The notes under the pieces were generated by a model. That model did no database searches, had not been told where the DNA came from, and saw nothing but the letters and a program-made list of their open reading frames with translations. Below are positions 2,962 to 40,797 of a stretch of 51,215 bases of DNA, one piece after another. How positions within the stretch are numbered: the first letter of the stretch is position 1; the number at the start of each line of letters is the position of its first letter. Source of the stretch: Caloramator sp. GTDB taxonomy: Bacteria > Bacillota > Clostridia > Clostridiales > Caloramatoraceae. The translations under genes were made by a program, and so were the position numbers. The stretch spans positions 1 to 51,215 of the forward strand of contig JAOAEI010000005.1 of NCBI GenBank assembly GCA_026416875.1. Reading direction: 5' to 3'.

Positions 2962-3092
2962 GTGATTTAAAACAACTTTGCATTATATTAATAAAATCAA
3001 TACTTATCTTAATATTCATAAAAATTAACGATTTTTAATATTGGTTTTATTACCATATAATTAAATTGAAAATACAAAAAAGGGGGATAGTT

Positions 3093-4178
3093 ATGCAGGA
3101 TAAAAGGTTAATCATCATCAACGGTCTTATTGTTGGACTTTTAGCTGTTTTGCTTGTAAAGTTTGGCAATCCAGTAAACATGGGGATTTGCATTGCCTGC
3201 TTTATAAGGGATATTGCAGGTGGACTTGGACTTCATAGGGCAGAACTTGTTCAGTATATCAGACCAGAAATCATAGGTATTGTTTTAGGTGCCTTCTTGA
3301 TGTCCTATGGAAAAAAGGAATTTAATGCAAGAGGAGGCTCTTCACCTTTAGTAAGATTTGTTCTTGGCTTTATTGTTATGATAGGTGCTTTAATGTTTTT
3401 AGGTTGTCCACTGAGAATGGTTTTAAGAATAGCAGGAGGAGACTTAAATGCAGTTGTTGGTCTTATAGGGTTTGCAGCAGGTATATATCTTGGAATAATA
3501 TTCTTAAACAAAGGATTTACATTAAAAAGAACATATACTTTAAACAAAGCGGAAGGTTTCTTATTTCCAGCAATTAATATAGGTTTATTAATACTACTTT
3601 TAGCAGCACCAGCCTTTATATTCTTTAGTGAAAAGGGTCCGGGTTCTATGCATGCTCCAGTATTTTTAGCTTTAGCTGCTGGGCTTATAGTTGGTGGATT
3701 TGCTCAAAGAACAAGGATGTGTATGGTTGGAGGAATAAGGGACCTTATATTATTTAAAGATTGGTATTTAATCTCAGGGTTTATTGCAATATTTGTTGCT
3801 GCGCTAATAGGCAACATTGCAATTGGAAAGTTTACATTAGGTTTTGTAAAGCAGCCTGTTGCCCATAATGATGCTTTATGGAACTTCCTCGGAATGGGAC
3901 TTGCTGGCTTTGGCTCAGTATTACTTGGAGGATGTCCATTAAGACAGCTAATCTTAGCAGGAGAAGGAAATATAGATTCTGCTATTACAGTTCTTGGAAT
4001 GCTTCTTGGAGCAGCCTTTGCCCATAACTTTAAGCTTGCTTCAACTCCAGATGGACCAACGCCAAATGGGAAAATAGCAGTTATTTTAGGGTTTATAATA
4101 GTTTCTCTTATAGGATACTTTAACATAGAAAGGGAAGTTAATGTTAAAGTTAAAGGGGGAGTTAAAGTTGAAGGGTAA
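3093..4178 (+). CDS. yedE: YedE/YeeE-family putative selenium (sulfur-compound) transporter
   Basis: Multi-TM protein with duplicated GCPLR motifs ([30 protein letters not shown]) and [15 protein letters not shown] track begins at 3066; ATG at 3093 after gggggata is the likelier start. Confidence 0.85.
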
Positions 4179-4380
4179 TTTAGTTGATGCAAGGGGAAGG
4201 TCCTGTCCAGAGCCTGTTCTTTTGACGAAGAAGGCAATTGAAGCTTCACCTGAAGGGGTTAAAGTTTTAGTTGACAATGTAACAGCAAGGGAAAATATAA
4301 AAAGATTTGCAAAAAATAGTGGATATAATGTTGAAGTTGTAGAAAATGAAGAGGGAATACTTTTAACTTTAAGTAGGTGA
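4168..4380 (+). CDS. TusA/YedF-like sulfurtransferase domain protein
   Basis: [19 protein letters not shown] is the SirA/TusA CPxP motif; overlaps the yedE 3' end; TTG start at 4168 likely. Confidence 0.85.
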
Positions 4381-4384
4381 CAAG

Positions 4385-4618
4385 ATGCAATATATAGTAA
4401 CCTTTTATACACAAAACGGAGCATTTAAGTTTCAAAGATTCCTGAAAGACAAGGGGATAGAGGTTAAGCTTATGCCAACTCCAAGGGTTCTAAGTTCAAG
4501 CTGCGGAATTTCAGCAGCCTTTGAATATGAAGATGATATATCAGGGTTTATAATAGAAGAAGTAGATGCGATTTATAAGAAGGAAAAGGATCAATATTAT
4601 CTTGTTTACAGGGATTAG
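4385..4618 (+). CDS. DUF3343-like putative Se/S carrier protein
   Basis: Short protein MQYIVTFYTQNGAFKFQRFLKDKGIEVKLMPTPRVLSSSCGISAAF; position after YedE/TusA. Confidence 0.75.
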   Translation: MQYIVTFYTQNGAFKFQRFLKDKGIEVKLMPTPRVLSSSCGISAAFEYEDDISGFIIEEVDAIYKKEKDQYYLVYRD

Positions 4619-4730
4619 TTATCTTATACAATTTACATTTAAAGAAAGTAAAAAGCAGTTGCTATATGGAGACTTGGTCTTGAAAATCCTGATTATTGGA
4701 ATGTTATAAAAATCAAATTAAATAGATGAT

Positions 4731-4764
4731 AATTAAGCCCCACTTTTTATGGTGGGGCTTAATT
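4731..4764. terminator. bidirectional terminator
   Basis: AATTAAGCCCCAC-N7-GTGGGGCTTAATT between convergent genes. Confidence 0.8.
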
Positions 4765-5001
4765 ATGATTATTGTTTTCTATGTTATTATCTTCATTTGT
4801 ATGATTTTCCATGCTTTTTATTAAATTAGTATCCTTTAAAGTATCCCTTGCAGTTGATTGGCCAAAATAAAAGGAAATTATCATAGTAAATACGGTTAAA
4901 AATTCTGTGGAGCTAATAACTCCCTTTATACTAAGATAACAAAATACGCCTGTGAGCATTATGGCGATTGTTTTTTTGGTGCTAACCCACGTGTTTTTCA
5001 T
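4759..5001 (-). CDS. small membrane protein (holin-like appearance), unknown function
   Basis: 80 aa, two hydrophobic stretches, charged tail. Confidence 0.55.
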   Translation of the reverse strand: MKNTWVSTKKTIAIMLTGVFCYLSIKGVISSTEFLTVFTMIISFYFGQSTARDTLKDTNLIKSMENHTNEDNNIENNNHN

Positions 5002-6426: not shown

Positions 6427-6774
6427 ATGATACAAGAAGTTTTTATGATGGTAATTCAAAATCTAATAACTACATTGGTGGCAATAATTCTTTTTTTAGT
6501 ATTAATCTGATATTTAAAAAGCTTATTGTCTCCGGTTAAGACGATAACAGCAAAAGTTGTAGATAAAAAGACGAGTATAATAAAAACGGTAAATATTCCA
6601 TATCATGTAAGTCGTAACTTAAATAGGACAAGATTTTTTATAACATTTGAAACTAAAGGTGGAAAAAGAATAGAACTTTTAACTCATCCAATACTTTATG
6701 ATGAGATTTATATAGGAGAAGAAGGATATGTTACCTACAAAGGGGAATGGTTAAAGGATTTTAAAAGAAAATAA
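6427..6774 (+). CDS. DUF2500-like membrane-anchored protein with one in-frame TGA (putative selenocysteine); 115 aa if TGA is decoded
   Basis: ATG 6427 preceded by aggtga (6416-6421). Translation MIQEVFMMVIQNLITTLVAIILFLVLI[U]YLKSLLSPVKTITAKVVDKK... is continuous with the 6526..6774 ORF. The ORF-track TTG start at 6526 has no RBS and loses the TM anchor. Confidence 0.7.
6523..6547 (+). other. candidate bacterial SECIS hairpin
   Basis: TTATTGTCT-CCGGTTA-AGACGATAA: 9 bp with one G-U, GG in the loop, beginning 12 nt after the TGA at 6508-6510. Confidence 0.55.
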
Positions 6775-11640: not shown

Positions 11641-12144
11641 ATGGAGCACAAATATAAAAACTATTTGCCTAAAATTCATGAAACTGCTTTTGTTGCAGAA
11701 GGGGCTCATATCATAGGGGACGTTGAAATTGGAGAAGAGGCTAACATATGGTTCAATTCCGTTTTGAGGGGAGATGTAAATAGCATAAAGATCGGAAGAG
11801 GAACAAATATTCAGGATAATACTACTGTTCATGCCTCAACAGGGCAAAGTCCAACGATAATAGGTGATTATGTTACTGTAGGGCATAATTGTATTATTCA
11901 TGGCTGCAAGATAGGAGATTATTCACTTATAGGTATGGGTTCAATTATTTTAGACAATGTTGAAATTGGGGAATATACTATTATTGGTGCTGGCTCTTTG
12001 GTAACCCAAAACAAAAAAATACCACCAAGGGTTTTATGTATGGGATCGCCTGCCAAGGTTATTAGGGAATTGACTGAAGAAGAAATAAAATACCTAAAAA
12101 ATTCAGCAAAACATTACATAGAACTTTCTAAAAATTATAAGTAG
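11641..12144 (+). CDS. gamma-carbonic anhydrase family / hexapeptide-repeat protein
   Basis: Left-handed beta-helix repeats; RGDVNSIKIGRGTNIQDNTTVH, GHNCIIHGCKIGD. Confidence 0.9.
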   Translation: MEHKYKNYLPKIHETAFVAEGAHIIGDVEIGEEANIWFNSVLRGDVNSIKIGRGTNIQDNTTVHASTGQSPTIIGDYVTVGHNCIIHGCKIGDYSLIGMGSIILDNVEIGEYTIIGAGSLVTQNKKIPPRVLCMGSPAKVIRELTEEEIKYLKNSAKHYIELSKNYK

Positions 12145-12152
12145 GTGATGAT

Positions 12153-12614
12153 ATGATTAATAATTCAAGATCCTGCTGAGGCCCTAAAACTGCTTCAGTT
12201 GAAGCTAAAAGAAAAAAATGTCCTGTATGTAATAGGGAAGGTGAAGAAGTAAGTTTAAAGACGGTAAAACATCTTGTTAAGGAAGACAATGTGGTTAGAA
12301 ATTTAGATTACTTCATTTGCCTTAATGAAGAATGTGATGCTATTTATTATGCAGATGATTTGGTGTATAAAAAGGAGAATGTAAAGGTACCGGTATGGTT
12401 TAAAAGGGATGCTAATCCTAAAATAATCTGTTATTGTAGCATGGTGACAGAGAATGATATTAAAAGAGCAGTTGAAAATGGTGCAAAGAGCTTGAAGGAT
12501 GTAATAATAATTACTGGTGCGATGAAAAATTGCAATTGTGAAATAAACAATCCTAAAGGAAAATGCTGCAGCAATGAAATAAAAAAAGTAATGGAAAGAT
12601 ATTTGGGCATTTGA
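12153..12614 (+). CDS. CopZ-like zinc/[2Fe-2S] protein with N-terminal in-frame TGA (putative selenoprotein)
   Basis: ATG 12153 with aggtgatgat RBS. MINNSRSC[U]GPKTASVEAKRKKCPVCNREGEEVSLKTVKHLVKEDNVVRN... is continuous with ORF 12291..12614. CPVC zinc site; Cys motif ICYCSMVTE...NPKGKCC as in CopZ N-terminal/BFD-like domains. Confidence 0.85.
12192..12205 (+). other. candidate bacterial SECIS hairpin
   Basis: GCTTC-AGTT-GAAGC, perfect 5-bp stem, G at loop position 2, 12 nt after the TGA at 12177-12179. Confidence 0.5.
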
Positions 12615-12672
12615 CAAAAATTAAAATAAGAGATACTATATAATTGACAAATGCTCAAAATGAGGTGATACT

Positions 12673-13497
12673 ATGTCAAATTGCAATACATGTCCTTCAG
12701 CTGCAACCTGCAGCAGTAAAGATTCAGGAACATGCACAATTAACTTTAATCCAAACAACAATATTAAAAAAGTTATTGCTGTAATGAGTGGAAAAGGTGG
12801 AGTTGGAAAATCTACGGTTTCTGTTATTATTGCAAGGCAGTTAATGGAAAGAGGTTATAAGGTCGGCATTTTAGATGCAGATATCACAGGACCTAGTATT
12901 CCAAGACTTTTAGGGATTAAAGATAAAAGGGCAACAGGCAATGAGGAATTTATTTTCCCTGTTGAAACAAATGATGGAATAAAGGCAATGTCATTAAACT
13001 TTCTGATGGAGGATGAAAATCAGCCTGTAATTTGGAGGGGACCTATAATAACAGGTGTAGTTCAGCAATTTTGGAATGAGGTTCTATGGGGTGACTTAGA
13101 TTACCTTATAATCGATATGCCTCCAGGAACAGGGGATGTTGCCCTAACAATAATGCAGTCCATCCCAATTACGGGACTTATAATGGTTTCTGTTCCACAG
13201 GATTTAGTTTCTATGATTGTTGCAAAGGCAATAAATATGGCAAGGAAGATGGAGATAAATGTTTTGGGAGTCATTGAAAACATGAGCTATATAGAATGTC
13301 CTGATTGTGGGAAGAAGATTAAACTATTTAAAGGAGATACTGAAAAGTTTGTAAAGGATTTAGGCGTTGAGCTTCTTGGAGAAATTCCGATGAATGAAGA
13401 TATAAATAATTTAGAATTATATAATGAAAATAGAGATAAAATTTCCAAAATGTTTGGGCCTATAATAGATAAAATATTAGAAAAAGTAAATGGATAG
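12673..13497 (+). CDS. Mrp/NBP35-family Fe-S carrier P-loop ATPase
   Basis: AVMSGKGGVGKSTVS deviant Walker A; Cys-rich N-terminus; IECPDCGKK. Confidence 0.92.
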   Translation: MSNCNTCPSAATCSSKDSGTCTINFNPNNNIKKVIAVMSGKGGVGKSTVSVIIARQLMERGYKVGILDADITGPSIPRLLGIKDKRATGNEEFIFPVETNDGIKAMSLNFLMEDENQPVIWRGPIITGVVQQFWNEVLWGDLDYLIIDMPPGTGDVALTIMQSIPITGLIMVSVPQDLVSMIVAKAINMARKMEINVLGVIENMSYIECPDCGKKIKLFKGDTEKFVKDLGVELLGEIPMNEDINNLELYNENRDKISKMFGPIIDKILEKVNG

Positions 13498-40493: not shown

Positions 40494-40539
40494 TTATTTT
40501 AAAAAAAGAAAAAATAAAAATAAAATATTGCAAAGGGCG

Positions 40540-40797
40540 ATGATAAGAAGAGTAGGAATAAGTCGATGCTTCAGCGAGCTAACGATGGTGGGAGGTTAGT
40601 GCTAGACTTATTCTGAAGAACATCTTGGAGCCTCTAACCGAAATTGCACTAAGCAAAAGTAGGCTTAGACGGGGCTACGCTGTTAAAAGGTAGGCGATAT
40701 CGAGTTTATCTCCGTATCGTTAAAGGGGGCTTTTGCCAATTTGGGTGGCACCGCGGAATCAACCTTCCGTCCCATTAGGGACGGAAGGTTTTTTTAT
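40540..40797 (+). promoter_or_regulatory. T-box riboswitch (predicted Asn specifier)
   Basis: T-box TGGGTGGCACCGCGG (40742-40756); stem I helix GAATAAGTC...GACTTATTC; AAC at 40619-40621 followed by A; downstream gene asnA. Confidence 0.93.
40761..40797 (+). terminator. T-box terminator
   Basis: CCTTCCGTCCC-ATTA-GGGACGGAAGG followed by T7. Confidence 0.92.

Follow-up and report, generated by a model that had tools for sequence, protein, structure and literature searches.

The coding sequence and its in-frame TGA

The window, that is, the whole stretch of 51,215 nt of Caloramator sp. DNA analysed here, contains a gene that is interrupted near its 5' end by an in-frame TGA. The gene, its immediate neighbours and a group of selenium-related genes in the same window are as follows:

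3066-4618, + strand: selenium accessory genes, namely a yedE transporter (3066-4178), a YedF-like TusA domain (4141-4377) and a short ORF (4385-4618)
11641-12144, + strand: gamma carbonic anhydrase-like hexapeptide protein, upstream neighbour (NF050158, 5.8e-65, under the cut-off; gene order shared with C. australicus and C. fervidus)
12153-12614, + strand: coding sequence of the readthrough product, 153 aa with predicted Sec at residue 9, a CopZ N-terminal-domain-like zinc/[2Fe-2S] selenoprotein (NF045877, PF18423, PF04324)
12177-12179, + strand: in-frame TGA, very probably a selenocysteine codon giving Cys8-Sec9 within the motif SCUGP (C. australicus and C. fervidus also have TGA here, other relatives have Cys; selABCD present)
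12192-12205, + strand: bSECIS-like hairpin GCUUC-AGUU-GAAGC (GCTTC 12192-12196, AGTT 12197-12200, GAAGC 12201-12205), fitting the bSECIS model
12219-12335, + strand: zinc domain with four invariant Cys, 23, 26, 56 and 61 (CPVC ... CLNEEC; PF18423; invariant in 25 aligned relatives)
12423-12596, + strand: BFD-like [2Fe-2S] domain with invariant Cys 93, 95, 129, 138 and 139 (PF04324 and alignments)
12673-13497, + strand: Mrp/NUBPL-type Fe-S carrier P-loop NTPase, downstream neighbour (PF10609, 7.4e-93)

The RBS-like sequence TAGGTGATGAT lies 5' of ATG 12153, from which the codons read MINNSRSC, TGA 12177-12179 and then GPKTASVEAKRKKCPVC, the frame running on uninterrupted as far as the TGA stop codon at 12612-12614. 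This start, its ribosome-binding site and the residues leading up to the TGA agree to the base with the original prediction. The CPVC zinc motif corresponds to codons 23-26 of the readthrough frame, and none of the 13 codons separating it from TGA 12177 (GGC CCT AAA ACT GCT TCA GTT GAA GCT AAA AGA AAA AAA) is an ATG, GTG or TTG; CPVC can therefore be reached only through the TGA, and a translation start 3' of the TGA and ahead of the motif is ruled out. The mechanical ORF list begins the gene at GTG 12291 (12291-12614), so that the listed product lacks the zinc motif, which makes up the N-terminal half of the zinc site, a loss that had been correctly anticipated. Homologues bear a CPxC region that lies upstream of the position equivalent to 12291.

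Selenium machinery of the source genome

A single contig of the same genome clusters selD, a selA-like ORF, selB and the gene for tRNA-Sec. SelB scores 396.9 bits and tRNA-Sec, with the anticodon TCA, 68.8 bits; selD (397 bits) carries an in-frame TGA of its own, and the selA-like ORF, immediately 5' of selB, was recognised by eye, without a profile test. The whole selABCD set that the original prediction proposed to look for is thus present, and neither of the two findings that it named as weighing against it, a genome devoid of Sec machinery and homologues lacking the CPVC region, was encountered. Within the window, the yedE selenium transporter is matched by TIGR04112 (4.9e-160, 532 bits) and the YedF-like TusA domain by TIGR03527 (6.7e-17, under the cut-off). 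This YedF consists of the TusA-like domain only, with 78 aa against the 194 positions of the profile. The ORF at 4385-4618 has no match in NCBIfam; it is presumably DUF3343-like and may be the usual DUF3343 partner of YedF. The window also contains a T-box leader (RF00230, 112.8 bits) at 40531-40777.

A hairpin that accompanies the TGA

As predicted, a GCTTC-AGTT-GAAGC hairpin follows the TGA: its stem begins 12 nt after the TGA and its loop 17 nt after the UGA. The bSECIS model, as quoted in PMC13188914, comprises a loop of 3-9 nt, an upper stem of 4-16 bp, a G in the first two loop positions and a loop located 16-37 nt after the UGA; the window hairpin, with its AGUU loop, 5-bp stem and distance of 17 nt, agrees with it on each point. 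The window sequence also allows the alternative AACTG-CTT-CAGTT hairpin that had been proposed; this one is disrupted in the two Caloramator relatives, its loop lacks a G, and it was rejected as a functional element.

By itself, the window hairpin does not stand out from synonymous recodings of the same peptide, 18.5% of which reach its score. Across the family, the strict hairpin (G at loop position 1 or 2) is present in 13 of the 15 distinct TGA genes, L041 and L073 failing the rule, versus 1 of 24 distinct Cys genes (Fisher p 1.7e-7, relatedness ignored), and the sole Cys gene possessing it is a near-copy of a TGA gene. Pairs were counted by script in a fixed register, the automatic DNA alignment having misplaced the hairpin. 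The five inner pairs were paired in 60 of 60 cells, a count reached by none of 2000 shuffles (mean 41.5) and compared with 14-26 for slid controls, although the register was picked by eye from the same sequences, which favours the observed 60/60. All five pairs of the stem show changes on both sides; neither the number of pairs with such changes nor the number of pair types exceeds that in 2000 shuffles, only the paired percentage being higher. L102, a TGA relative retrieved in a separate class-level search and left out of the choice of register, possesses the hairpin CCACT-AGTTC-AGTGG. Globally, the family-wide hairpin is clearly beyond chance and co-occurs with TGA but not with Cys, so that it serves as a separator of Sec from Cys genes.

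Distribution of TGA and Cys among relatives

The TGA is kept in two further genomes of the same genus, matching C. australicus (SCUSP) and C. fervidus (SCUGP). In the three Caloramator-group sequences the residues on both sides of the TGA are conserved, indels involve whole codons only and the hairpin is invariant; we count this conservation of the flanking frame as selection. Within the genome collection, 19 of 70 relatives have TGA at the Sec position, and others have Cys there, or lack the N-terminal motif and start near CPxC. SelB is found in the genomes of all 19 TGA loci (split over contig ends in one case) and is absent, at the cut-off, from 9 of 29 other genomes (one-sided p about 0.006, relatedness ignored). 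In Thermoanaerobacterium saccharolyticum NTOU1 a TGA lies a few codons out of place and no SelB exceeds the cut-off, for which reasons this TGA is probably a mutation or an error. Sporosalibacterium faouarense possesses two paralogues on one contig, a Sec-type gene (L033, 4001-4474, SCUGS) and a Cys-type gene (L091, 842-1309, SCCGG).

A block of 0.5-1 kb containing the CU gene is mostly 95-99% identical across genera of human-associated anaerobes (Fenollaria, Ezakiella, Oribacterium, Finegoldia, Anaerococcus and Peptoniphilus; loci L024, L026-L029, L031, L032, L034, L035, L042 and L089, around 3900-4930), in differing neighbourhoods. Such near-identity suggests recent horizontal transfer; the block has no match among plasmid or phage collections. 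In two near-copies the Sec codon, near 4013, has been replaced by TGT (Cys, Mediannikoviicoccus, L024) or GGA (Gly, Lagierella, L034), and SelB is kept in both genomes.

A search of 391 class-level genomes with NF047645, the profile of a related family with a Cys-Cys motif, yielded nothing over the cut-off, and the matches inspected proved to be related to the CU family, which left no separate CC set for the tree. In this tree the Caloramator sequences group in one supported clade, with a long branch, amid the Sec relatives. The deep forks are weak, and both a single and independent origins of Sec are compatible with the tree.

Family, domains and fold

The readthrough product matches NF045877 ('Csac_0668 family 2Fe-2S cluster-binding (seleno)protein') with an E-value of 9.8e-51 and 171.9 bits, below the curated cut-off of 190; residues 5-151 align to profile positions 7-160 of 161, the N-terminal CU region included. 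The statement in the original prediction that some members of the family are annotated as '(seleno)protein' is correct. Its two Caloramator relatives score 173.3 and 174.2 bits, so that the whole branch (172-174 bits) stays short of 190. The Caloramator proteins therefore lie outside the NF045877 equivalog as curated and are best classed with the CU-type CopZ N-terminal proteins, as a divergent sister branch. They share with this family, the CopZ family form 2, the zinc and BFD-like domains, the vicinal Cys-Sec near the N-terminus and an occurrence in Clostridia, and differ from it in that their linker is shorter, the hairpin loop measures 4 nt, the gene neighbours are gamma carbonic anhydrase and Mrp, and the score falls below the cut-off. 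NF047645 (putative iron-sulfur cluster-binding metallochaperone, CopZ_Nterm_CC) has the same two domains, and its match to the readthrough product (3.2e-27, 95.4 bits, slightly below the cut-off of 100) is far weaker than that of NF045877; its motif is Cys-Cys, whereas the window product has Sec in place of the second Cys. In the alignments, the SCU of the window product lines up with the SCC/CCC of relatives, upstream of the zinc domain, and homologues with an N-terminal motif have either Cys-Cys or Cys-TGA, which supports the proposed vicinal Cys-Sec (CUGP).

A recent review (2026) lists a '(2Fe-2S)-binding protein (copper chaperone Copz family) form 2 (Csac_0668 family ... selenoprotein)' with the motif CU (PMC13188914). 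CopZ form 2 is also tabulated in a 2022 review (PMC9312934), and the main text of Zhang and Gladyshev 2008 makes no mention of CopZ. The Caloramator gene is thus a divergent extra member of an already catalogued selenoprotein family, not a discovery.

Pfam assigns zf_CopZ (PF18423, 6e-17) and Fer2_BFD (PF04324, 9.5e-07) to the readthrough product, and detects no HMA copper-transfer domain in its 153 aa. In both sequence and fold, the N-terminal domain of Archaeoglobus fulgidus CopZ (2HU9; phmmer 2.2e-19; Foldseek of the AlphaFold model, E 1.6e-09, TM 0.70/0.81) is the one clear structural relative, and the product has the zinc and [2Fe-2S] Cys residues in common with it; by analogy with 2HU9, Cys 23, 26, 56 and 61 would act as zinc ligands. 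Full-length archaeal CopZ ends in a C-terminal HMA copper domain. The window protein is devoid of this domain and has an added Cys-Sec tail, so that the predicted CopZ-like identity holds for the N-terminal module and not for the copper-carrying part. The AlphaFold model has a pLDDT of 87, falling below 50 at residues 1-17, the stretch that includes the Cys-Sec pair; according to the model, this N-terminal tail is probably mobile.

Gene neighbourhood

Only 8 nt separate the gamma carbonic anhydrase-like gene from ATG 12153, and the two genes probably share one transcript. The Mrp-type gene may also be transcribed on its own, since a promoter-like site lies ahead of it at 12611-12639. The order gamma carbonic anhydrase, CopZ-CU, Mrp is kept in three Caloramator-group genomes. 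Elsewhere in the family, the Sec-bearing genes L033 and L053 lie downstream of genes for an ArsR-family regulator and for MerA (559 and 573 bits against a cut-off of 454), and other relatives adjoin genes for a cadmium-type P-type ATPase, CadD, arsenite methyltransferase (ArsM) or MerR. Such a mercury-, cadmium- or arsenic-type context is absent from the window, where the neighbours are the gamma carbonic anhydrase and Mrp genes, and no copper ATPase was detected among the neighbouring genes examined.

Selenocysteine or stop, and the function of the product

The ORF, the Sec machinery, the family, the fold and the hairpin covariation all have strong computational support. We infer from these sequence comparisons that Sec is inserted at UGA 12177 in vivo, and consider it very probable that the CopZ-like protein of Caloramator uses it there: SelB and tRNA-Sec would decode the UGA as selenocysteine under the direction of the hairpin at 12192-12205. 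Alternatively, the TGA could be a true stop, created by a nonsense mutation or an assembly error, with a shortened protein made from GTG 12291. Standard ORF calling indeed yields 12291-12614, the source assembly is fragmented (272 contigs, 78% complete), and a similar-looking TGA in the same window appears to be such a case. The latter (6508-6510) interrupts a DUF2500 ORF at 6427-6774, which the original prediction had put forward as a second selenoprotein candidate with the same hairpin spacing; the C. australicus-like genus mate G001 (locus L094) has an Arg codon in its place, AGA, which differs from TGA by one base, and the TGA at 6508 is for that reason most likely a nonsense change or assembly error and not Sec. 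The 6508 ORF is accordingly not supported as a selenoprotein and the analogy fails. TGA 12177, on the contrary, is shared by two independently sequenced species, the codons between it and GTG 12291 are conserved and include the zinc motif, and the hairpin tracks TGA rather than Cys, which makes a true stop highly improbable.

As regards function, the NF045877 selenoprotein family is, to our knowledge, catalogued and functionally uncharacterised. Under the decoding proposed above, the product would be a free-standing module of the CopZ N-terminal type, combining a four-Cys zinc knuckle, a BFD-like [2Fe-2S] domain and a disordered tail with the vicinal Cys-Sec. This tail would most likely serve as a mobile and strongly nucleophilic arm for binding a soft metal or a thiol/selenenyl-sulfide, and the [2Fe-2S] cluster would pass electrons, the protein acting as a soft-metal metallochaperone/reductase. 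The most likely description is a metallochaperone, of soft-metal or thiol redox type, whose Cys-Sec tail is flexible, the chances that metal handling is its role being about even. The main rival is a selenoprotein that serves Fe-S cluster traffic with the neighbouring Mrp, by electron donation or cluster handling, instead of metal detoxification. The gene order kept in three Caloramator-group genomes and the BFD-like [2Fe-2S] domain are consistent with it; however, that order is known from three related genomes only and may be mere inheritance, and beyond this group the gene often sits beside mercury, cadmium or arsenic genes, so that we regard it as possible, if rather doubtful. Less likely still is a copper chaperone handing Cu(I) to CopA in the manner of A. 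fulgidus CopZ: the match to the CopZ N-terminal domain extends to both sequence and fold, but the HMA domain and a neighbouring copper ATPase, in the Pfam search and among the genes examined, are both missing.

Implications

The Caloramator branch is likely misannotated: as it lies below the curated cut-off, routine annotation probably truncates the gene, dropping the Sec residue and the zinc motif. The value of the present analysis is mainly in correcting this annotation, and a catalogued selenoprotein family gains a divergent branch through it. It is conceivable, though we consider it unlikely, that a Cys-Sec protein of CopZ type, encoded elsewhere near genes of the mercury, cadmium and arsenic type, has acquired an Mrp-type Fe-S carrier as its permanent partner in the Caloramator lineage. 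If this partnership is real, selenocysteine would gain a role in the traffic of Fe-S clusters or metal cofactors.
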